A stretch of DNA of 32,975 bases from Candidatus Stoquefichus sp. (GTDB lineage Bacteria > Bacillota_I > Bacilli_A > Erysipelotrichales > Coprobacillaceae), in the NCBI GenBank assembly GCA_021768625.1, contig JAETUM010000029.1, forward strand, positions 1 to 32,975, in the 5' to 3' direction. How positions within the stretch are numbered: position 1 is the first letter of the stretch; each line of letters starts with the position of its first letter. Shown here piece by piece: positions 2,576-14,700 of this stretch. The translations under genes were made by a program, and so were the position numbers. The notes below the pieces were generated by a model. It was given only the letters and a program-made list of their open reading frames with translations, was not told the origin of the DNA and did not search any database.

Positions 2576-3724
2576 ATGTATAAAATAAAACAATTAAATA
2601 AAATTTCTAAAATAGGACTTGATTTATTTGATGATCAATATCAAGTTGTTGATGAAGCTAATGATGAAGATGGTGTTTTGGTTCGTTCTGCATCAATGCA
2701 CGAATATGATATGAATCCAAATCTTAAAGCAATTGCAAGAGCAGGTGCAGGAGTTAACAATATTCCATTAGATAAATGTAGTGAAGAAGGAATTGTTGTA
2801 TTCAATACACCAGGAGCTAATGCAAACGCTGTTAAAGAATTAGTTTTGTGTGGATTATTATTATCATCACGTAAAGTTGTTGAAGGTATTGATTGGGTAA
2901 AGACTTTAAAAGGTGATGAAAACGTTGCTAAATTAGTTGAAAAAGGAAAAAGCCAATTTGTAGGACCAGAATTAGATGGTAAGAAATTAGGTATTATTGG
3001 ATTAGGTGCTATAGGTGTGAATGTTGCTAATGCAGCAATTAAATTAGGAATGGAAGTTTATGGATATGATCCATATATTTCTGTTAATGCTGCATGGGGA
3101 ATGAGTAAATGGGTTAAAAATGCACAAAATATGGATACTATTTTCAGTGAATGTGATTATATTACATTACATGCTCCAAGCACAAAGGAAACAAAAGGAA
3201 TTATTAATAAAGACAGTATTGCTTTAATGAAAGATGGGGTTAGAATCTTAAATTTCGCAAGAGCTGATCTTGTTGTATCACAAGATGTATTAGAAGCTGT
3301 CAAAGAAGGAAAAATAGCAAAATATGTTACTGACTTTGCAACACCTGATATTGTCGATGTTGAAAATGTTATTGCTATGCCACATTTAGGTGCTTCAACT
3401 CCTGAATCAGAAGATAATTGTGCTCGTATGGCTGTTAAAGAAATGCGTGATTATTTAGAAAACGGAAATATTGTTAATTCTGTAAACTTCCCAAGTATTA
3501 ATGAACCACGTACAACAAAGTATCGTATTTGTTTAATTCACAAGAATGTACCAAATATGCTTGCACAATTTGCAACACTCTTTGCAAATCAACAAATTAA
3601 TATTGAAAACATGGTCAATAAAGCAAAAGGCGATTATGCTTATACAATTATTGAAACAAATGATGTTGTGGGGATAGAAGAATTTGATACTTTAGAAAAT
3701 GTTGTAAGAGTAAGAGTTGTTTAA
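2576..3724 (+). CDS. serA: D-3-phosphoglycerate dehydrogenase SerA (short ACT-domain type)
   Basis: SerA oxidises 3-phosphoglycerate to 3-phosphohydroxypyruvate with NAD, the entry step of serine synthesis and the supplier of substrate to SerC. The substrate and nucleotide domains of a D-2-hydroxyacid dehydrogenase are clear: ARAGAGVNNIP near residue 54, the NAD loop GLGAIG at 142-147, the catalytic Arg in NFARADLV (229) and the His in MPHLGAST (270). Residues from about 316 form a C-terminal ACT domain, the usual serine sensor. The 382-residue length matches the compact form common in Bacillota, without the larger intervening domain. AGGAG at 2565-2569 overlaps the serC stop codon. A short terminator overlaps its own stop codon. 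Confidence 0.96.
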   Translation: MYKIKQLNKISKIGLDLFDDQYQVVDEANDEDGVLVRSASMHEYDMNPNLKAIARAGAGVNNIPLDKCSEEGIVVFNTPGANANAVKELVLCGLLLSSRKVVEGIDWVKTLKGDENVAKLVEKGKSQFVGPELDGKKLGIIGLGAIGVNVANAAIKLGMEVYGYDPYISVNAAWGMSKWVKNAQNMDTIFSECDYITLHAPSTKETKGIINKDSIALMKDGVRILNFARADLVVSQDVLEAVKEGKIAKYVTDFATPDIVDVENVIAMPHLGASTPESEDNCARMAVKEMRDYLENGNIVNSVNFPSINEPRTTKYRICLIHKNVPNMLAQFATLFANQQINIENMVNKAKGDYAYTIIETNDVVGIEEFDTLENVVRVRVV

Positions 3725-3748
3725 GGATCTTTTGATCCTTTTTCTTTT
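3723..3748 (+). terminator. Rho-independent terminator of serC-serA
   Basis: The stem AAGGATC / GATCCTT with a TTTT loop (3723-3740) runs straight into a T-rich tract. The left arm overlaps the serA stop codon. Confidence 0.85.
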
Positions 3749-3802
3749 ATTCTATAATTTCTCATTTTTCTATGATAGAATAAAGGAAAAGGTGATGATT
3801 TT

Positions 3803-4729
3803 ATGAAAAAAATAATAAGTGTTTTATGTGTTTTATTAATGTTAACTGGTTGCCAAGATAAAACAGAAGTTTTTGATTCATCAAAAAGTTACACAATACA
3901 AGATCAAGTAAAATTAGAGATTATCAAAACAGAAGCTATTCAAAAAATAGAACCGTCTAATAAAAATATAATGACAAGTGGTTTGCAAGCTAGAGATGAC
4001 TTTTTATTTGTAGATGTCTTATTTAAGGTTACTAATGTTTCTACTGAACAATTTAAATTACAACAAATATTTACAGGAAGATATGAAATCAATCAAATAT
4101 CTTATGATTTAAATATGATTATGGAAACAAAAAGTTATACAGGACTTACAACAACAGATACAATTAAAAAAGATGAAGAAAGATATGTTCATTTATATTG
4201 TGAAATTCCAAAAGATGAGATGAAAAAAGAAATGACATTACATTTCCAAGTAATGAACAAACAAGAATATAAATATACTTTTTCAATTGATGAAGAAACC
4301 AAAGTAAATGACAATAAACAATCAATTGGAGATACTCTTTCTTTACAACAGAGTCAAATAACTTTAAATCGGTTAGGCCAATCTAAAAAAATAGAACCTT
4401 CTAAAAAAGGACTATTTTATAGTTATATTCCAGTAGATAATCAAAATGAAACATATATTTATCTACAAATAGATATACATAATACAACAGATCATGAAAT
4501 TAATCCAAAGAATTATATATATAGTGAATATCATATAGATGATACAAAGGTAAGTTCTCAAATTATTCTTGAATCAGAAAATCATAAATCTTTAGAAACA
4601 TCAGGAAATATAGAACCTTTACAAACAAGAACCCTCTATATGATAACACCTATTAATGATTCATTATTAGATAAACAGGGATATATTCATTTGTTTGTAG
4701 AAGGAAAGACATTTCAAATCATGCCATAA
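3803..4729 (+). CDS. Lipoprotein with two similar beta-rich halves (DUF4352-like)
   Basis: This 308-residue protein begins with a lipoprotein signal ending in LTGC (Cys 17), so it should be anchored outside the membrane. The mature part seems to hold two related domains: each has a segment ending in KKIEPS or QKIEPS followed some residues later by a V-D-hydrophobic strand and an N-T or V-T turn (DVLFKVTNVST near residue 73, LQIDIHNTTDHE near residue 222). This is the look of DUF4352/telokin-like extracellular immunoglobulin-type folds. No function can be assigned. AGGTGAT precedes the ATG. It is a single gene: serA's terminator lies upstream and its own terminator follows at once. Confidence 0.8.
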   Translation: MKKIISVLCVLLMLTGCQDKTEVFDSSKSYTIQDQVKLEIIKTEAIQKIEPSNKNIMTSGLQARDDFLFVDVLFKVTNVSTEQFKLQQIFTGRYEINQISYDLNMIMETKSYTGLTTTDTIKKDEERYVHLYCEIPKDEMKKEMTLHFQVMNKQEYKYTFSIDEETKVNDNKQSIGDTLSLQQSQITLNRLGQSKKIEPSKKGLFYSYIPVDNQNETYIYLQIDIHNTTDHEINPKNYIYSEYHIDDTKVSSQIILESENHKSLETSGNIEPLQTRTLYMITPINDSLLDKQGYIHLFVEGKTFQIMP

Positions 4730-4942: not shown

Positions 4943-6760
4943 ATGTGTGGAATTGTAGGGTTTAAGGATACAGAACATCAAGATGAAGTTATTTTAGAAA
5001 AAATGCTTGTGAAAATAAAACATCGTGGACCAGATGGACAGGGAAAGTTTTCTGATGGATGTGGATATTTAGGACATTGTCGATTATCTATTATTGATAA
5101 AGATAATGGTAGTCAACCTATGTTTAATGATACAAAGAGTATAGCCTTGGTTTATAATGGAGAGATCTATAATTATATAGAACTCAAAAAGGACTTAATC
5201 AATAAAGGACATAAATTCAGTACACATTGTGATAGTGAAGTGTTAATACATGGGTATGAAGAATATGGTTATGATTTTGTAGAAATGTTAAGAGGAATGT
5301 TTAGTTTTGTCATATATGATATGGATAAAAATTTGTTTTTTGGAGCAAGGGATCATTTTGGAATTAAGCCATTTTATTATTATGCTCAACATGGATTTAT
5401 ATTTGCTAGTGAAGCAAAGGCTATTTTAGAGCATCCTGATTATCATAAAGAGTTAGATGAAAAATTATTACCACTCTATTTAAAATATAATTATGTCCCT
5501 TTAAATAAGACATTATTTAAAGGTATAGAGAAATTACCAGCAGGACATTATTTTATATATCAAAATAATCATTTATCTATTCAGCGATATTTTCAATTAG
5601 ATTTTTCAAATGAAGAGGTAACACAAAAACAAATACAAGAGATTGTGAAAGATTCAGTTGAACATCATTTATTAAGCGATGTAGAAGTTGGTTCATTTTT
5701 AAGTAGTGGAATAGATTCATCATATCTTGTTGCTTTAGCAAAAGTTAATCATACATACACTGTAGGATATGAAGAAGAAAGTTATGATGAAATCCATTAT
5801 GCTCAACAATTCTGTAATCAATTACATATTCAAAATCACCATCATATTCTTAATAAAGAAGAGTATTTTGAGTCTTTGAAAAAAGTCGTTTATCATTTAG
5901 ATGAACCTCTAGGAGATCCATCAGCAGTTTCTCTCTACCATTTAGCAAAATTAGCTAGTCAGGACGTTAAGGTTGTTTTATCTGGAGAGGGAGCAGATGA
6001 GTTTTTTGGAGGATATAACTCTTATAAAATACATGCATATGATTATTTACCATTCTTTTTACGTCATATCATTGCTACTATAGCCAAAACAATGCCTCGT
6101 ATGAAAGGAAGAAATTTTTTAATAAGGCATGGAATGAAAGCAGAAGATGGATATATTGGCGTTAATTCAGTATTTAATGATGAGGAATTAAAAGAATTTT
6201 GTACTATTCATAATGAAGTAACGAATAAAGATATTTCTCAAGCTTTACTTAAAGGATATGAAAAATATAATGAATTAAATAAAAAGCAAATTATAGATAT
6301 TCAATTATGGTTAGAAAAAGACATATTCTTAAAAGGAGATCGTATGAGTATGGCAAACTCTCTTGAATGTAGAGTTCCATATAGTGATATTCAAGTTTAT
6401 AATATCGCAAAGAGACTAAAAGTTAATCAAAAGGTTAATCGAAAACAAACAAAGATATTGTTACGAGAAGCTTATCATCAAGATGTTGAATTTGCAGATT
6501 ATAATAAAAAGAAACTAGGATTTCCAGTTCCATTAAGGGAATGGATAAAAGAAGAGAAAATGAGAGAAAATATATTGAAGGCATTTGATAGTCAAACTGC
6601 TCAAAAATTCTTTAACATAGATTATTTAAAACAATTATATAACGATCATTATTGTAATAGAAAAGATAATTATAAAAAAATATGGGTAATATATATATTT
6701 ATTTTATGGTATCAAATCTATTTTGAATCCCCTGATTTTAACGGGGGGGGGTCTAATTAG
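4943..6760 (+). CDS. asnB: Asparagine synthetase B, glutamine-hydrolysing
   Basis: AsnB makes asparagine from aspartate, ATP and glutamine. The N-terminal glutaminase domain starts with the catalytic Cys at position 2 (MCGIVGF) and shows RLSIID (48-53), NGEIYNY (72-78) and CDSEVLIHGYEEYG (96 on). The C-terminal synthetase domain has the pyrophosphate loop SSGIDSS at 254-260 and SGEGADEFFGGY. At 605 residues the length is normal. GGGAGAG lies 7 bases before the ATG. After the conserved end (ILWYQIYF) the frame goes through a run of nine G at 6743-6751 and ends as NGGGSN. That tail is probably not conserved and depends on the length of the G-run, but the enzyme domains lie upstream and are intact. 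It is transcribed alone, with terminators on both sides. Confidence 0.95.
   Translation: MCGIVGFKDTEHQDEVILEKMLVKIKHRGPDGQGKFSDGCGYLGHCRLSIIDKDNGSQPMFNDTKSIALVYNGEIYNYIELKKDLINKGHKFSTHCDSEVLIHGYEEYGYDFVEMLRGMFSFVIYDMDKNLFFGARDHFGIKPFYYYAQHGFIFASEAKAILEHPDYHKELDEKLLPLYLKYNYVPLNKTLFKGIEKLPAGHYFIYQNNHLSIQRYFQLDFSNEEVTQKQIQEIVKDSVEHHLLSDVEVGSFLSSGIDSSYLVALAKVNHTYTVGYEEESYDEIHYAQQFCNQLHIQNHHHILNKEEYFESLKKVVYHLDEPLGDPSAVSLYHLAKLASQDVKVVLSGEGADEFFGGYNSYKIHAYDYLPFFLRHIIATIAKTMPRMKGRNFLIRHGMKAEDGYIGVNSVFNDEELKEFCTIHNEVTNKDISQALLKGYEKYNELNKKQIIDIQLWLEKDIFLKGDRMSMANSLECRVPYSDIQVYNIAKRLKVNQKVNRKQTKILLREAYHQDVEFADYNKKKLGFPVPLREWIKEEKMRENILKAFDSQTAQKFFNIDYLKQLYNDHYCNRKDNYKKIWVIYIFILWYQIYFESPDFNGGGSN
6743..6751 (+). 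repeat. Homopolymer run of nine G at the 3' end of asnB
   Basis: Nine consecutive G lie in DNA that is otherwise very AT-rich; I noticed no other G-run of this length in the window. A length change would alter only the last few residues: ten G gives NGGGV and a stop, eight G gives a tail of roughly 20 residues. Confidence 0.9.
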
Positions 6761-8109: not shown

Positions 8110-8297
8110 GTTAAAAATTAATATTAGATTTATTTTGATTTAAAGATAGGGATATTTTAAATCATTTATATATTATTGAGATTGATTTTAAAATTTTAAA
8201 GTAGACAATTCATTATTATATATAAAAATTAAATACTTTCTCAAAAGTGGCGGAAAATCAAGGGCTTAAGCCACTTTGAGAGGAAAAACAGTTGAGT
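8110..8297. other. Non-coding left flank of the mobile element
   Basis: No gene is visible. Positions 8110-8235 are plain AT-rich DNA after the secreted-protein gene. At 8240-8251 and 8270-8280, CTCAAAAGTGGC and GCCACTTTGAG form an 11-bp stem with one bulged base. GGCTTAA and CACTTT in this hairpin recur in the same order on the minus strand of the right end (14642-14664), suggesting imperfect terminal inverted similarity. The exact left boundary is not resolved. Confidence 0.4.
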
Positions 8298-8316
8298 TTT
8301 ACTACACATTTACTAC
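8298..8316 (+). repeat. Left-end integrase arm-site candidates
   Basis: TTTACTAC occurs at 8298-8305 and again at 8309-8316. The same motif is paired at the right end, downstream of the integrase gene, matching the DR-2-type arm sites of Tn916 in arrangement. Confidence 0.5.
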
Positions 8317-8351
8317 AAACGAAGAGCCTTGTTTATGACAAACTAAAAATA

Positions 8352-8410: not shown

Positions 8411-8456
8411 AAAGGGATATTTCATTCATTCGTATTGAAATATCCCTTGATTTTTT
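8411..8456 (-). terminator. Bidirectional terminator after the cargo gene
   Basis: AAGGGATATTTCA (8412-8424) and TGAAATATCCCTT (8436-8448) form a perfect 13-bp stem. T-runs follow on both strands, so it ends the minus-strand cargo transcript and insulates the element from the left. Confidence 0.8.
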
Positions 8457-8476: not shown

Positions 8477-9136
8477 TTAACGGCGGGCACCGCAGTCGCA
8501 GTATTCGTAGTCGACATAGGTCTCGTTGTGACCATGGTCTTCCTGATGGGAACCGACTTGAACCTGTTTCGTTTCGTAGATGGTTTCTGTACGGTAGTTG
8601 CCGATGTAACCAGCTTTAATAAGCTCTTTGGCATGAGCCTTTGCGTCGTCGATGTTACTTGCAATATATCCATCTTCAGCGAAGATGAAGTTTGTTCCTA
8701 CAGCGACCTTTTGTGTCTCATAGTCGGGAACCGTCACCATGTTGGATACCCACTTCTGTGCGGTGTGCTGTTTCCACGAATGCTGGTGAGCAGGTTTGCT
8801 CGGCTTGTCGGAACCGCTGTTTCCAGAGTTTCCAGAATTGGAGCTGGAAGAGTCTTTTTTATTGGAATCTGTTGAACTGTTGTTATTATCTTTAGTAGTT
8901 GAAGTGGTATTGGAATTATCCGTATTTTTATCGGTTTTGCTATTTTCCTTTTCCTCTTTCTTATTGTCACTTTCTTTTGAAACATCAACTTTTTGTTCTG
9001 TTTGGGTTTCGGAATTCTTATTATCATTTGGTTTTGAAACAAAATAAATTCCTATTATCAATGATAATATAATCAATACTATAACTGTAATTACTATTTT
9101 CTTATTTTTGTTGATCATGTTTTTAAATTTATCCAT
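8477..9136 (-). CDS. Membrane-anchored cargo protein with a low-complexity linker and C-terminal Cys motif
   Basis: The 219-residue protein has a basic N-terminus, one transmembrane helix (about residues 14-33), then a linker of about 75 residues made almost only of Ser, Asn, Lys, Asp, Glu and Thr, and a C-terminal domain from HQHSWKQHTAQKW (about 117) to the end. That domain has repeated pairs of Tyr/Thr-rich strands and finishes with CDCGARR, a Cys-x-Cys-Gly motif that may bind metal together with the His residues. The topology suggests the domain faces outward. Proteins with this HSW...CDCGA layout are, as I recall, frequent on mobile elements of gut Bacillota, but I know no function. The C-terminal part is clearly richer in G and C than the linker, as if joined from two sources. 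Confidence 0.75.
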   Translation of the reverse strand: MDKFKNMINKNKKIVITVIVLIILSLIIGIYFVSKPNDNKNSETQTEQKVDVSKESDNKKEEKENSKTDKNTDNSNTTSTTKDNNNSSTDSNKKDSSSSNSGNSGNSGSDKPSKPAHQHSWKQHTAQKWVSNMVTVPDYETQKVAVGTNFIFAEDGYIASNIDDAKAHAKELIKAGYIGNYRTETIYETKQVQVGSHQEDHGHNETYVDYEYCDCGARR

Positions 9137-9192: not shown

Positions 9193-9996
9193 TTACTTTT
9201 CTGTATAGTAATTTTTGTTATTCTGTAATCGTTCATAACTTCTTCTTACTGTAACGTTTTGCTTTTTTGTTGTCGTATCCTCTATGGAAAGTTCTTTTAA
9301 ATCAGAATCATACTTTCCACAGTGAACATAGTTGGAAATATCCTCTTTCAACAAATTTTCCTTTAATGTAAAGAATTTATTAAACAAAGCAGTTATCATG
9401 ATTTCTATTTTTCTCTCTTTAAATAATTCTTCTATTCTTTTATCTTCTGCTTTACTAGTTGCTAAAAAGTACTCATATAATTTAAGATGTTCTTTTTCTT
9501 CCTCTGTTAAATCTTCTCTCAATATCAAACCTTTCTTATGTAGCTGTTGTAATTCATCAACACGAAGATATTTTTTCTCATTGAATTGGTCAAATTGAAG
9601 AAGATACCCCTCATCTTTTGTCAAACCTACTTCATCCCATGATTTATAGATTTCATTTTCAATTTCATTAAATTCTTGTAATTGCTCTGCAACTAAAAGT
9701 TTATTTGGTCTATAATTCTTTGATTTAAAATTTCTTTGAAAATAACGAATTGTTATTTCATCATTTATATATTCTTCTACTATTTTTCTTGGATAATACT
9801 TTCGCTTTCCATTTCCGTCTTGATACGTTGCTTCTGAACTATATCTACTCTTGAAATCTCTTTGCAATTTTCTTTTCAATGCTTCAATTTGCCCAGTATT
9901 CATCTTATTTTCAATTTCAAAAACTGTTTTTAGAATTTTTATAATTTCATCTATTGAAAATAAACCATTATTCTCAAAGTCCTTGTTTTTAGCCAC
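9193..9996 (-). CDS. Element-encoded protein of unknown function
   Basis: This 267-residue soluble protein starts at GTG (9996), with AGAGGG about 8 bases upstream. It has no signal or membrane segment and is rich in charged residues and predicted helix. The N-terminal part (FSIDEIIKILKTVF ... ALKRKLQRDFKSRY) could be a DNA-binding fold. Two aromatic/basic patches follow (GKRKYYPRKIVEEYI, RYFQRNFKSKNYRPNK). It is read from a near-perfect promoter, divergently from the transfer genes, the place where mobile elements often keep a regulator. That is inference; I do not recognise the family. The cargo gene follows 56 bases downstream on the same strand and is probably cotranscribed. Confidence 0.7.
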   Translation of the reverse strand: MAKNKDFENNGLFSIDEIIKILKTVFEIENKMNTGQIEALKRKLQRDFKSRYSSEATYQDGNGKRKYYPRKIVEEYINDEITIRYFQRNFKSKNYRPNKLLVAEQLQEFNEIENEIYKSWDEVGLTKDEGYLLQFDQFNEKKYLRVDELQQLHKKGLILREDLTEEEKEHLKLYEYFLATSKAEDKRIEELFKERKIEIMITALFNKFFTLKENLLKEDISNYVHCGKYDSDLKELSIEDTTTKKQNVTVRRSYERLQNNKNYYTEK

Positions 9997-10151: not shown

Positions 10152-10183
10152 ATTCATCAATTGTAGAAAGGAGAGTGCTAATT

Positions 10184-10612
10184 ATGTTAAAACACTCAAA
10201 CCGCTATGCGGCAACCCTCGTAAAGGGAGAAGATTTTTTAAAAGATACTGGAAATAAGTATCGCTTAATTAGCCAGCGACAATATAAAGGAAAACCCGAT
10301 AAGGGTATTCCCGCTGGTGTAACTGTAACGCTTCAAATTATCGAAGACAATTCCGAACCAGTTATTGATAAAGCAACTGGACAGGAAAAGGATAACAACC
10401 TCTTCGAAACATTTGATGCAACAATAGTAGGTGTATCCTATCCTTTGGCTTTTCATAAAGGCGATTACGTTGCTTTGGAAGAGTTCAAGGAAGAAATCAG
10501 CTACTATATCAATTTTAATCTGATACTTCGTTTTGGTGGTATCAGGCTGTTGAAAGCAATGAACACACAACATAATGGAGGTGGAAATAATGTTACAGGA
10601 CAGACGAAATAA
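10184..10612 (+). CDS. Small element protein upstream of the coupling ATPase, unknown function
   Basis: The start at 10184 is chosen because AAAGGAG at 10167-10173 lies 10 bases upstream; a GTG at 10175 is too close to it. The 142-residue protein is soluble, beta-rich and acidic towards the middle, with segments GIPAGVTVTLQIIEDN, ETFDATIVGVSYPLAFHKGD and a C-terminal tail rich in Gly and Asn. Its position, first in the transfer operon just before the FtsK-like gene, is where Tn916-type elements carry small DUF961-like proteins, but the sequence does not convincingly match that family by eye. Its last 23 bases overlap the ATPase gene, implying coupled translation. Confidence 0.7.
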   Translation: MLKHSNRYAATLVKGEDFLKDTGNKYRLISQRQYKGKPDKGIPAGVTVTLQIIEDNSEPVIDKATGQEKDNNLFETFDATIVGVSYPLAFHKGDYVALEEFKEEISYYINFNLILRFGGIRLLKAMNTQHNGGGNNVTGQTK

Positions 10613-11900
10613 ATTCTTTGTCCTGTTTGCTTCTGAAATTCTTATTTGTATCATTGTTGGGCTGGCAATGGCGTTTGTCATGCCAGCCCATAATTTCCCT
10701 TTACAACTGGATGTACTGAAGCAAACAGGATATACCTTATTAAGCTTATCTTTCATACAGATTTTTACATATCTAGTTTATTGGTTTTTTTACCACAAGG
10801 GATATAAAGGTATGAGATATGCCTTTGTACACGCTAATATGATGAGAAAGCTTCGTCTTATGATATTAGAAGCAAGTTCCAAACATACGACACAGGAATA
10901 TGCAGGAGAGGAGAGAGTTGCAAAACTCCCACGCATTCAAATCATATTTGATGACGGCATGACCAGAGGAAAAGTCATCATAGGAAATTCCATACGTCAT
11001 CATAAGCTGTTAGAAGATATGAACATATCTTCTGCATTAGGAAAGTATATCGTTTCTGAACAGTATTTTTCTGATGATATGAATACATATGTCTATGAAT
11101 TTGAACTTGCAGAAACAGACCAGCTTGCTTTTAAGAATTACAAAGATTTTCAGTTGTTATGTTCCAAGCAAGAAAACGGAACATTGTTCATTGACGATAG
11201 AAATAGAGTTCCACTACACCATACACTTATTGTAGGTTCGACAGGTTCAGGAAAGACATATGCAACATATTCGTTGATTTTACAGTTGTTGAATTTTTCG
11301 ACTGTACCAGAGATATATTTTGCAGACCCAAAATGTTCTGCTTTATACGTGGTTGGTAAGTCTATCTCATGTGACAAAACAGCTGGAAGTACCAATGAAA
11401 TTGTATTCCTGCTTCAGCGTTTCTATGAAGCAATGCAAAAGCGTGAACAGGAAGCACAAGAGTATCTTAACAACAAACTTGACAGTGATTTTAAGGACTG
11501 GGGTCTGCAGGCTCACGTCTTGATTATTGATGAGTTTTCTTCATTCCAGTCTGTAGTAAATACCCTTGATAAATTTACAAGAGACAGGGTCAATATGTAT
11601 CTGACAAATATTATTCAGAAAGGCAGACAGCTCGGCTTCTTCATGTGGATAATCATGCAGAAATCAGACAGCAAGATATTGCCAACATATCTTCGTGACA
11701 ATCTTGTTTTCAAGGTCGTGCTCGGACAGGCTACTGATACGACTTATCAGACAGCCTTTGAAGAATACGCTGATCTGCCGAAGCGAAATTTTCAGCAAGG
11801 GCAAGGCTTATATACGTTCCAAGGTTTGACAAGGCAACCGAAAGTGTGTTCATTCCCGACCTTGAAGTTTGATATTCTTAAAGCTGTCCGTACTCGGTAG
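10590..11900 (+). CDS. FtsK/SpoIIIE-type DNA translocase, TcpA-like coupling protein
   Basis: This 436-residue membrane ATPase would bring relaxase-bound DNA to the mating channel. Two transmembrane segments lie at about 9-31 and 47-68. The motor domain has Walker A GSTGSGKT at 216-223 and Walker B LIIDEF at 311-316, followed by an Asn/Gln-rich sensor region (IIQKGRQLGFFMWIIMQKSD) typical of FtsK-HerA proteins of mobile elements. GGAGGTGG at 10577-10584 is 5 bases before the ATG at 10590. It lacks the C-terminal gamma DNA-reading domain of chromosomal FtsK and is much shorter, which identifies it as an element protein comparable to Tn916 Orf21 or TcpA. Confidence 0.88.
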   Translation: MLQDRRNKFFVLFASEILICIIVGLAMAFVMPAHNFPLQLDVLKQTGYTLLSLSFIQIFTYLVYWFFYHKGYKGMRYAFVHANMMRKLRLMILEASSKHTTQEYAGEERVAKLPRIQIIFDDGMTRGKVIIGNSIRHHKLLEDMNISSALGKYIVSEQYFSDDMNTYVYEFELAETDQLAFKNYKDFQLLCSKQENGTLFIDDRNRVPLHHTLIVGSTGSGKTYATYSLILQLLNFSTVPEIYFADPKCSALYVVGKSISCDKTAGSTNEIVFLLQRFYEAMQKREQEAQEYLNNKLDSDFKDWGLQAHVLIIDEFSSFQSVVNTLDKFTRDRVNMYLTNIIQKGRQLGFFMWIIMQKSDSKILPTYLRDNLVFKVVLGQATDTTYQTAFEEYADLPKRNFQQGQGLYTFQGLTRQPKVCSFPTLKFDILKAVRTR

Positions 11901-11908
11901 ATAACTCA

Positions 11909-11941
11909 TTCTGCGGGGGTTATGTAATAACCCCCGCAGAA
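11909..11941. other. Candidate transfer/replication origin (oriT/dso) hairpin
   Basis: TTCTGCGGGGGTTAT and ATAACCCCCGCAGAA form a perfect 15-bp stem with the loop GTA. It is the most GC-rich spot of the element and lies directly between the coupling-protein gene and the relaxase gene. Tn916 and ICEBs1 also keep a C/G-run inverted repeat holding the nick site next to their Rep_trans-family relaxase genes. No T-run follows, so it is not a standard terminator. Confidence 0.65.
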
Positions 11942-11984
11942 CAAGAATAAGAACCAAATACAAAGAACAGGAAAGGAAAAATTT

Positions 11985-13142
11985 ATGAAATATAAATCTA
12001 CCGTGAAAGTTGGTATAGATGAAATCACACTTGTACTGTTTCCAAATGAAAAAGTCCCCCCAGATGAATGGATAATCAAAGCAGATGAAATACTGGGAAG
12101 ATTTATCGATTTATCAAAGATTGAAGAATTGTTCGGAAAAATGCAAGAGGCTCAATATGGCGTTCAGCAAGGCTATAGTACAGGACTGACCTTTGAAAAC
12201 AAACCTTGGCACATGAGCATATCATGGCATGAATACTTGCAGACTATGGGTATCTGCATAAAATTTTCCGCTTATGCTTGGTCGGTATATCAGTCTACTT
12301 TTTTTGAAAGATATGGTAAGAGAATGAACATTGCTTTATTTCTGAAAATGATACAAAGTGATTTCTATATAGCAAGACTTTCTAGGATTGATATGACTGC
12401 TGATTATTTCAACTTTCATAAATGTTTCAATCCTAACACGATATATCAGAACTTGAAAAGCGGTTCAATTATTGTCAAAGACTATAAGAACCGCAGTATG
12501 ATAAAAACATTCAATGGAGTTGATAAAAACGGCATTATCTCTACCTTATATGTCGGCTCGAGGAAATCGAATACAAGATGTTTTACACGCATATACGATA
12601 AAAAAGCAGAGCAGATTGAAACAAAAGGGTTTCGATATGAAGAAGCAATCAATTGCAAAAGCTGGATACGTCAGGAAGTCGTATTTAAGGGAACTTATGC
12701 ACACCAAATTACAGAAGAATTATTGAATATTACTGATGAAAAAGAACTTGTGCAATTTATCGCACATCAGATTACAGATAGATACAGATTTTATGATATA
12801 CAGACTAAAAAAGAAATGAAATATACAAGAGCACTTCTCTATATTATGAATAACGCTCAGTTCAATCATTTATCAACTGCAATCGCAAAAGATAATGACC
12901 TTAAGCGTTCAATAATATATCTTCTGAAAGGTTCGGGATTATGTCCCACATTTTATAAAGCTTTTGAAGTATGGGGAGAAGGTGCAGACAAAGAAATTGC
13001 AAATTATCTTTTTGAATATTATGAAAAGTTTTACATACCAGAAGCGAATCAAAAAAAGGAAATAAAGTCATGGATAAAGAAACACAGAAGCACATTAAGA
13101 CAGCAGACCATAACGGAATATCTGAAAGGAGTGTGGGTATGA
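11985..13142 (+). CDS. Rep_trans-family relaxase / replication initiator (MobT type)
   Basis: The protein (385 residues) belongs to the rolling-circle initiator family that includes Tn916 Orf20, ICEBs1 NicK and pT181-type Rep proteins. It would nick the origin, stay attached to the 5' end, and start both transfer and replication of the excised circle. Visible family signatures are RIDMTAD at 134-140 (acidic metal-binding residues) and TLYVGSRKSNT ... TRIYDKKAEQ at 187-210; Tyr 204 in RIYDK is a candidate catalytic residue, not proven by eye. AGGAAAGG precedes the ATG. The perfect hairpin at 11909-11941 immediately upstream is the likely nick region. Its stop codon overlaps the next start (ATGA), so it is translationally coupled to the excisionase. 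Confidence 0.85.
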   Translation: MKYKSTVKVGIDEITLVLFPNEKVPPDEWIIKADEILGRFIDLSKIEELFGKMQEAQYGVQQGYSTGLTFENKPWHMSISWHEYLQTMGICIKFSAYAWSVYQSTFFERYGKRMNIALFLKMIQSDFYIARLSRIDMTADYFNFHKCFNPNTIYQNLKSGSIIVKDYKNRSMIKTFNGVDKNGIISTLYVGSRKSNTRCFTRIYDKKAEQIETKGFRYEEAINCKSWIRQEVVFKGTYAHQITEELLNITDEKELVQFIAHQITDRYRFYDIQTKKEMKYTRALLYIMNNAQFNHLSTAIAKDNDLKRSIIYLLKGSGLCPTFYKAFEVWGEGADKEIANYLFEYYEKFYIPEANQKKEIKSWIKKHRSTLRQQTITEYLKGVWV

Positions 13143-13345
13143 TGAAGAACACTGTTGTTCCTGTTTGGGAAAAATATATGCTTACAATAGAAGAAGCAAG
13201 CAAATATTTTGGTATAGGCGAAAATAAGCTTCGGCGGATTGTAGATGAACATAGGGGTGAACCATTTATCTTCTACAACGGACAAAGAACCCTTATCAAA
13301 AGGAAACAGTTTGAAAATGTGTTGAATGAAATCGACACCATATAG
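13139..13345 (+). CDS. xis: Excisionase, Tn916 Xis-like
   Basis: This 68-residue basic protein carries LTIEEASKYFGIGENKLRRI, the winged-helix start of Tn916-type excisionases, and ends with a TLIKRKQFENVL wing and helix. It bends DNA at the element ends and directs the integrase towards excision. The ATG at 13139 overlaps the relaxase stop in ATGA, and AGGAG at 13127-13131 lies 7 bases upstream. Upstream in-frame codons exist but belong to the relaxase region in another frame. The integrase gene follows after a long hairpin. Confidence 0.85.
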   Translation: MMKNTVVPVWEKYMLTIEEASKYFGIGENKLRRIVDEHRGEPFIFYNGQRTLIKRKQFENVLNEIDTI

Positions 13346-13397: not shown

Positions 13398-13421
13398 CCA
13401 TAAATGAAAGGAGTTAAAAGT

Positions 13422-14600
13422 ATGGAAAAGAGAACCGACAATAAAGGAAGAATATTAAGAAACGGAGAGAGCCAAAGAAAAGACGGTAGATATGCTTACA
13501 AATATATAGAAAACGGTAAACCTAAATTTGTCTATTCCTGGAAACTGGTATCTACTGATAGAGTACCAAAAGGAAAAAGAGATTGTGTTTCACTTCGTGA
13601 AAAAGTCAAAATGATAGAAAAAGATTTATCTGACGGTATTAGTACCTCAAACAGAAACATGACAGTATCACAGCTATATGACCGTTATACAAGAAGCAAG
13701 GCAAATGTTAGAAAAGGTACACAGACTGGCAGAAAATACCTTAAAGAAGCCTTGCAAACAGATATTCTGGGGAATATGAGCATTGATAAGGTAAAACTAT
13801 CAGAAGCCAAAGCATGGGCATATAGAATGAGAGAAAAATATGCTTACAGTACAGTAAAGAATATGAAAAGAAGCCTGAATGCTACCTTTCATCTTGCGAT
13901 ACAGGACGATTTGCTTAGAAAAAATCCTTTTGATTTTGCTTTGACGGATGTTATTGAAAATGACACCAAAAAGAAAGAAGCACTGACAAAGGAAGAGATA
14001 AAAGCACTTCTTGATTTTGCAAAAACAGATAAAACCTATAAAGTCTATTATCCTGCAATCGTTATTTTATTAAATACAGGTTTGCGTATCTCTGAATTAT
14101 GCGGATTGACGCTTTCTGACATTGATTTTGATAATCGCACAATTGATATTAACCACCAATTGAAAAAGGATAAAGACGGATACTATACAGAACCACCGAA
14201 AAGTGTCAGCGGTTATCGCAAGATACCTATGACAGACTTGGTATTTCAAACTTTGCTGGAAGTTATAAAAAATAGAAAAAATACACAGCCTATTGTTGTT
14301 GACGGTTATAGCGATTTCCTCTTTTTGAACAGGCAGGGATTACCTATGTATAACGCATACTATTCATGTAGATTTTCAGCACTTTCAAAAAAGTATCGTA
14401 AATATACAGGAAAAGAACTTCCTAATATCACACCGCATATTTTAAGACATACTTTTTGTACGAACATGGCAAACAAAGGAATGACGCCAAATAATCTACA
14501 GTATGTTATGGGGCATAAGAATATTACTATGACACTAGGATATTATGCACATGGAAGCTATCAATCAGCACAAGCCGAAATGAAACGATTGACTGCATAA
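13422..14600 (+). CDS. int: Tyrosine recombinase (Tn916-type integrase)
   Basis: The integrase cuts and rejoins the element ends with the chromosome. Counting from the ATG at 13422 (392 residues), the catalytic residues are Arg 222 (TGLRISEL), His 339 and Arg 342 (HILRHTF), His 365 (GHKN) and the nucleophile Tyr 374 (TLGYYAH), a complete set. The N-terminal 75 residues form the Tn916-type arm-binding domain (KGRILRNGESQRKDGRYAYKY) and residues 80-165 the SAM-like core-binding domain. AGGAG at 13409-13413 is 8 bases before this ATG; an ATG at 13404 overlaps that site and is rejected. Direct repeats that could be arm sites begin right at the stop codon. Confidence 0.95.
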   Translation: MEKRTDNKGRILRNGESQRKDGRYAYKYIENGKPKFVYSWKLVSTDRVPKGKRDCVSLREKVKMIEKDLSDGISTSNRNMTVSQLYDRYTRSKANVRKGTQTGRKYLKEALQTDILGNMSIDKVKLSEAKAWAYRMREKYAYSTVKNMKRSLNATFHLAIQDDLLRKNPFDFALTDVIENDTKKKEALTKEEIKALLDFAKTDKTYKVYYPAIVILLNTGLRISELCGLTLSDIDFDNRTIDINHQLKKDKDGYYTEPPKSVSGYRKIPMTDLVFQTLLEVIKNRKNTQPIVVDGYSDFLFLNRQGLPMYNAYYSCRFSALSKKYRKYTGKELPNITPHILRHTFCTNMANKGMTPNNLQYVMGHKNITMTLGYYAHGSYQSAQAEMKRLTA

Positions 14601-14620
14601 TCTACTACTAAATTTACTAC
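14601..14620 (+). repeat. Right-end integrase arm-site candidates
   Basis: TCTACTAC (14601-14608) and TTTACTAC (14613-14620) mirror the pair near the left end. They begin immediately after the integrase stop codon. Confidence 0.5.
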
Positions 14621-14700
14621 TTTTTAGAACGTTAAAAAGTGATAGTTTAAGCCAAAATATAAAGCAATTTACCGAATGAAAAAATGAGAAACCCTCATAA

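Follow-up and report, generated by a model that had tools for sequence, protein, structure and literature searches.

A probable transfer and replication origin with a GT'AA nic core, and complementarity of bases across the nick in Rep_trans origins

Results

Gene layout around the hairpin

The window, by which we mean the whole stretch of 32,975 bases that was analysed, carries a run of genes and one hairpin in the order tcpA, hairpin, Rep_trans relaxase, xis and int (Table 1). This order is the one seen in compact integrative mobilizable elements (IMEs), and the gene content places the element in the TcpA/MobT class. No T4SS genes were found among the open reading frames of about 8.2-14.7 kb, and a weak match to VirB4_CagE (TIGR00929, 17.4 bits against a cut-off of 643) falls on the ATPase of TcpA.

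Table 1. Features of the element and of the hairpin (the apostrophe marks the nick; bases are numbered from it)
Feature	Position	Strand	Basis or sequence
Small protein at the site of the DUF961/OB-fold helicase-processivity genes in Tn916-type elements	10175..10612	+	Place only, without family match
TcpA/FtsK-like coupling protein, 441 aa	10575..11900	+	PF01580, 27.8 bits, cut-off 24
5' arm of putative origin hairpin	11909..11923	+	TTCTGCGGGGGTTAT
Loop GTA	11924..11926	+	Predicted nick T11925/A11926, relaxase-coding strand, placed from the T'AA position as in 74/86 Rep_trans loci
Putative nic core GT'AATAAC	11924..11931	+	G11924 (-2) complementary to C11931 (+6); A11930 is +5
3' arm of putative origin hairpin	11927..11941	+	ATAACCCCCGCAGAA
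Rep_trans relaxase / rolling-circle initiator, 385 aa	11985..13142	+	PF02486, E 1.3e-15
Excisionase, Tn916-Xis family	13070..13345	+	PF09035, E 2.3e-19
Tyrosine integrase, Tn916 type	13404..14600	+	PF00589, E 1.5e-37; PF02920, E 9.5e-31

The presumed ends of the element, at about 8.24 and 14.65 kb, are guesses, and no clear direct repeats marking them were found. Similar TACTAC..ATTTACTAC motifs lie near both presumed ends (about 8300-8318 and 14604-14622), as do AAAAGTG words (~8240-8330 and ~14600-14650), and together these resemble integrase arm sites. On the minus strand, the left part of the element carries two genes: 8477-9136 encodes a secreted-looking protein rich in lysine and serine, and 9193-9996 a protein of 267 aa without family matches. 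In a relative from S. suis (L004), a gene on the minus strand (3055-3984) occupies roughly the corresponding position. Also near the left end, at 8412-8448, a perfect 13-bp hairpin with an 11-nt loop is followed by a T-rich stretch and is a likely terminator. Elsewhere in the same genome a VirB4/TraG-like ATPase of 613 aa is encoded (L093; G000 contig 74; PF19044, 39.7 bits, cut-off 25.8), which possibly marks a helper conjugation system. At the thresholds used, no further copies of the element were found among 43 genomes of the family, 315 of the order and 392 of the phylum, which returned only the window itself and one match at 31% identity.

The relaxase and its relatives

The relaxase gene is the only Rep_trans gene in this genome. 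All five active-site motifs listed for the family (D; RxD; T/SxY/ExG; YxKxxE; W/LxRxE; PMC5714925) are present, as D12, R134xD136, T187xY189xG191, Y204xK206xxE209 and W227xR229xE231, and D12, R134, D136, Y204, K206, R229 and E231 were invariant across 16 aligned proteins. By motif, these positions correspond to the residues reported to matter in RelSt3 (D72, D177, Y252, K254, E257 and E280; PMC6499999). A small profile found RepSTK1 (4CIJ) at E 4.9e-11, and when an AlphaFold2 model of the protein (pLDDT 71, pTM 0.69, with the C-terminal 100 residues poor) was compared with the PDB, the only matches up to E 0.001 were RepSTK1 (4CIJ, 3.5e-13) and RepDE (4CWC, 2.9e-9). The N terminus gave no HTH family match, and the model opens with a strand (residues 6-20) of the catalytic domain.

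The closest relaxase, at 40% identity, is encoded on a contig from a viral collection (L054) with FtsK and integrase genes alongside. It is followed by those of S. suis elements (L004-L006, 33-35%) and of plasmid copies from E. faecium and Bifidobacterium (about 28%); further relatives are found on small FtsK-bearing staphylococcal plasmids. The phage records searched gave no matches, no relatives of two other relaxases were found in viral contigs, where the exact hairpin also gave 0 matches, and two more order-level searches, of 8 genomes each, added 0 new loci.

A perfect inverted repeat between tcpA and the relaxase gene

A sequence-only reading of this DNA had described a perfect 15-bp, GC-rich hairpin with loop GTA at 11909-11941, lying between coupling-protein and relaxase genes and followed by no T-run. 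All of this was borne out. The arms are 100% complementary, the coupling-protein stop lies 8 bases from the hairpin and the relaxase ATG 43 bases from it, and no T-run follows on either strand; 'GC-rich' is true relative to the surroundings, each arm having 8/15 G+C in a window of 29.5% G+C. No other perfect inverted repeat with a loop of 3-12 nt in the whole window is as long (the runner-up has 13 bp), and the hairpin is the sole strong one in the gap between the two genes; the longest arms in shuffles of the whole window (n=20) were of 9-12 bp. Folded with its flanks as single-stranded DNA it reached -21.3 kcal/mol, compared with -8.7 +/- 2.6 in shuffles (z -4.9; 0/200 at least as stable). 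The loop in this longest fold is of 3 nt, which weighs against reading it as a nic hairpin. An intrinsic terminator was rejected, the GC stem being without a T-run, and the hairpin is absent from the terminator scan. The motif CTAA does not occur in the hairpin on either strand.

Hairpins with T'AA in the loop at Rep_trans loci

A first set of 86 Rep_trans loci was assembled from bacterial genomes and plasmids, including pT181, pC221 and Tn916-type elements. Origins were called automatically from hairpin stability and the presence of T'AA in the loop only, ignoring bases -2 and +5, in the range -300 to +200 of the relaxase frame. A GC-rich hairpin with T'AA in the loop on the relaxase-coding strand was called in 74/86 loci, 12/86 being without a call, and in 1/86 of the controls, which were the 3' ends of the same genes. 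Scores of at least 14 were obtained in 67/86 real regions and in 27/1720 shuffled ones. Given such hairpins in 74 loci against one control, that of the window is most likely an oriT or double-strand origin, which supports the earlier proposal of a transfer/replication origin of a Rep_trans relaxase: place, GC-rich arms and T'AA loop are the same across these loci.

The caller picked the known origin hairpin in pT181 and pC221 (CT'AATAG; L081/L082), whose origins are established (PMC4797284). In Tn916 (CT'AACAG) the known hairpin was matched after a stronger neighbouring hairpin had been set aside; the published Tn916 oriT deletion removes CCCCCCGTATCTAACAGGGGGG (PMC11658703), and the hairpin at locus L091 is the same one. 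Near kin of the window share its design, with GT'AATAAC in S. suis (L004-L006) and GT'AATCAC in E. faecium (L017).

Complementarity across the predicted nick

The core CT'AA has been published as conserved in MOBT origins (PMC9371924) and the nic sequence has been described as well conserved (PMC12614216). In 51 non-redundant origins, base -2 was C in 27, G in 22 and T in 2. These origins comprise one per 60% cluster with a nic site (L021 standing for L022) together with L007 and L017. The state of base -2 followed a rule, in that it complements base +5 unless that base is A, in which case it complements +6; this was obeyed in 49/51 origins. Where +5 is not A, -2 was complementary to it in 34/34 (20 C:G and 14 G:C); where +5 is A, -2 was complementary to +6 in 15/17, counting as complementary L054, which has T at -2 and A at both +5 and +6, and leaving L055 and L021 as the two failures. 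The pair states under the rule are thus C:G, G:C and, rarely, T:A, and the window obeys it with G11924:C11931.

These counts depend on some choices of site. Overlapping TAATAA ties were moved to the upstream T'AA in up to nine named loci, a published-type CT'AAC site was put in place of a stronger hairpin in five Tn916-type loci (L025, L026, L029, L031 and L091), the nic sites of L035 and L067 were added by eye, and L036 and L061, which by eye read GT'ATAAC, were excluded. A fully automatic count over the same 86 loci, with the upstream tie-break and no manual fixes, gave 67 that obey the rule, 7 that do not and 12 without a call. The rule was obeyed by chance in 49/246 calls in shuffles (about 20%) and in 5/24 on the reverse strand.

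After the rule had been fixed, 29 further loci were obtained from two order-level searches, leaving aside rows already in the first set and one match below the cut-off (L107). They yielded 22 calls, of which 22/22 obeyed the rule, and 7 loci without a call; four of the proteins are 87-99% identical to ones in the first set, and in clusters below 60% identity to it the rule was obeyed in 16/16.

The link between -2 and +5 was among the strongest between any columns (z 17.3), and the remaining top-ranking links belonged to the stem arms. A relaxase tree of 56 clusters, 'quick' and with long branches, requires no fewer than 12 changes of the C/G state, and no fewer of the partner base. Twelve contrasts were available on all branches of the tree, and in the independent contrasts on well-supported branches both bases had changed together in 7/7 (sign test p 0.016). 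No relaxase residue followed the C/G state, the best column carrying 0.43 bits with no clean split. Because no relaxase column follows the state, pairing fits these data better than a reading of the base by the protein.

The sequence-only reading had suggested that the site might be of a new specificity, and had proposed comparing the same gap in related elements for co-variation with the relaxase. The first suggestion stands in so far as GT'AATAAC differs from CT'AACAG, and falls short in that GT'AA is common (22/51 non-redundant origins). The comparison did reveal covariation, which runs across the nick between -2 and +5/+6; no column of the relaxase tracks the C/G state.

Two other sources for the base at -2 were tried and rejected. 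Arm polarity, that is whether a G-run or a C-run follows the nick, is broken as a cause of G or C at -2 by 13/51 origins (9 C:C and 4 G:G); in L062, L080, L015 and L008, for example, G at -2 and C at +5 are followed by a G-rich arm. Simple extension of the stem accounts poorly for the rule, since in the 34 origins with a base other than A at +5 no single stem position did better than -7, complementary in 21/34, against 34/34 for -2, and +5 was without a partner in the stem register in 11/34.

Discussion

Interpretation and comparison with known origins

The hairpin is very probably the nic-bearing part of oriT in a small integrative mobilizable element, where it would serve at the same time as the double-strand origin of replication. 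It sits, in the gene layout described above, next to a relaxase with intact catalytic motifs, and place, hairpin and T'AA are conserved across the family. Judged from the position of T'AA, the nick is most likely between T11925 and A11926 on the plus strand. As an origin it belongs to a known kind, of which it is a variant: the state of its nic core differs from the published CT'AA. As far as sequence comparison can tell, it is the sequence of the loop and the complementary bases on either side of the nick that matter, rather than a perfect stem of 15 bp.

The MOBT origins of Tn916, ICEBs1 and ICESt3 share with the window a GC-rich hairpin between coupling-protein and relaxase genes, 5' of the relaxase, with T'AA in the loop on the relaxase-coding strand, a PF02486 relaxase and Tn916-type Xis and Int. 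They differ in the nic core, which is CT'AACAG with C at -2 instead of GT'AATAAC with G, and in the 3' arm, which is G-rich where that of the window is C-rich. Unlike theirs, the relaxase of the window has no N-terminal HTH, and the element has neither mating-channel genes nor an IR2 of the TGTCAC type. In ICESt3 the bind site is IR2, with TGTCAC, downstream, and can itself extrude (PMC9371924); neither TGTCAC nor GTGACA occurs in 11801-12300 of the window. The absence of the HTH and of TGTCAC counts against the origin reading, as do the 12/86 loci without a call, the lack of further copies of the element in the genomes searched and the lack of a relaxase residue that tracks the C/G state. The double-strand origins of pT181 and pC221 have CT'AATAG (L081/L082) where the window has GT'AATAAC, and both have AATA after the nick and an inner A/T palindrome. 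Their origin lies inside the rep frame, whereas that of the window lies outside it and is accompanied by coupling-protein and integrase genes. In the pT181 family, discrimination between plasmids is described as residing in a separate bind site (PMC4797284). No clear inverted repeat of the ICRIII type, which is bound by Rep in the pT181 origin, was seen in 11942-11984. Direct repeats of AGAAC at 11938, 11950 and 11964, which extend from the 3' arm in the direction of the relaxase ATG, are a possible bind site for the relaxase. The order of TcpA, relaxase, excisionase and tyrosine integrase is that of streptococcal IMEs of class 1 (Rel_PF02486/MobT with TcpA; PMC5357655), which belong to another host lineage.

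Proposed mechanism

Following excision, the supercoiled circle would extrude the inverted repeat as a hairpin; a need for extrusion is supported by pC221, in which nicking requires negative supercoiling and is about 10-fold slower with ICRII scrambled (PMC5775427). Tyr204 of the relaxase would then attack the T11925-A11926 phosphodiester in the loop and stay bound to the resulting 5' end (AATAACCCCC...), rolling-circle copying would be primed by the 3' end left free (...TTATGT), and TcpA would hand the strand over to the mating channel of some other element. With the loop engaged, G11924 is predicted to pair with C11931, the first G/C past the AAYA run, closing a small nic loop. The nic nucleotides would be presented in a five- or six-base loop T'AAYA(A), while 3-5 bases on the 5' side would form a bulge.

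From the covariation of these bases we infer that -2 and +5/+6 form a base pair that closes the nic loop, as in the unrelated relaxase TrwC. In TrwC of R388 a contact between nic nucleotides 22 and 25 gives the substrate its shape and holds a U-turn, and transfer lost by G22C is restored by G22C/T25G (PMC4176350). Both cases would involve an intramolecular contact at nic, the evidence being experimental for TrwC and comparative here; TrwC is an HUH enzyme of unrelated fold, and the spacing of the pair and its place relative to the cut differ. A wider proposal, the chances of which we put at about even, is that Rep_trans enzymes recognise not a fixed CT'AA but a closed loop N T'AAYA(A) N′, in which N:N′ is a Watson-Crick pair, C:G, G:C or rarely T:A, and the 5' side carries a 3-5-nt bulge. 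The pair would act as a lock for cleavage and correct rejoining, convergent with the 22:25 lock of TrwC, and could be swapped freely in evolution, GT'AATAAC of the window being a natural swapped version. Neither a GT'AA core nor the -2:+5 rule was found in the open-access papers searched, and a pairing rule across the nick appears to be unreported.

Alternative explanations

The rule could also reflect, in place of a base pair, a 7-8-mer that is nearly palindromic and is recognised by both subunits of a dimeric relaxase. CTAATAG and GTAATAC are indeed near-palindromes, RelSt3 is reported to be dimeric in solution (PMC6499999) and the Reps of the pT181 family to act as dimers (PMC4797284). The state has nevertheless changed at least 12 times on the tree with no relaxase column following, and a shift of the partner to +6 in origins with A at +5 is not expected of a rigid palindrome; we consider a dimer reading less likely than pairing, though still plausible.

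The remaining alternatives concern the hairpin itself. It might be a binding site of the relaxase or a lagging-strand (single-strand) origin, with the nick elsewhere, given that IR2 of ICESt3 is a bind site able to extrude (PMC9371924) and that GC-rich triloop hairpins stand beside the nic hairpin in L007. The single strong inverted repeat in the gap nevertheless has T'AA in its loop as in the established nic hairpins of pT181, pC221 and Tn916, and the region offers no second candidate with such a loop, making a nick elsewhere improbable. A transcription element between tcpA and the relaxase gene (a terminator, an attenuator or an mRNA-processing hairpin) would suit a hairpin placed between two closely spaced genes in a series that all read in one direction, yet neither strand has a T-run after the hairpin, and across loci the loop keeps its sequence where arms and location vary, even inside the rep frame in pT181 and pC221; this we consider highly improbable. 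Only the small loop speaks for an inverted repeat arisen by chance, which is hardly credible against the fold energy (z -4.9), arms beyond the 9-12 bp of shuffled windows and the 74/86 versus 1/86 of the survey.

Implications and further observations

On these data the 'conserved core' CT'AA would give way to a rule in which base -2 has two main states and its partner base covaries with it. Such a rule provides a sequence signature for unannotated origins of Rep_trans plasmids, ICEs and IMEs, a family that carries much Gram-positive resistance, and single and double base swaps offer a clean way to ask how a non-HUH relaxase family recognises its cut site.

Some of the surveyed loci had features of their own. 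The E. faecium element (L017) has an intact nic hairpin and a relaxase annotated as three fragments, and probably needs help in trans. In an element of Marinilactibacillus (L007), whose relaxase gene is broken, two more hairpins, likewise GC-rich and with GTA loops, are arranged in tandem immediately before the nic one, at 5794-5840. About 155 bases ahead of their nic hairpins, three small staphylococcal FtsK/Rep_trans plasmids (L019, L021 and L023) have in common the inverted repeat GCAACGTAAA...TTTACGTTGC.
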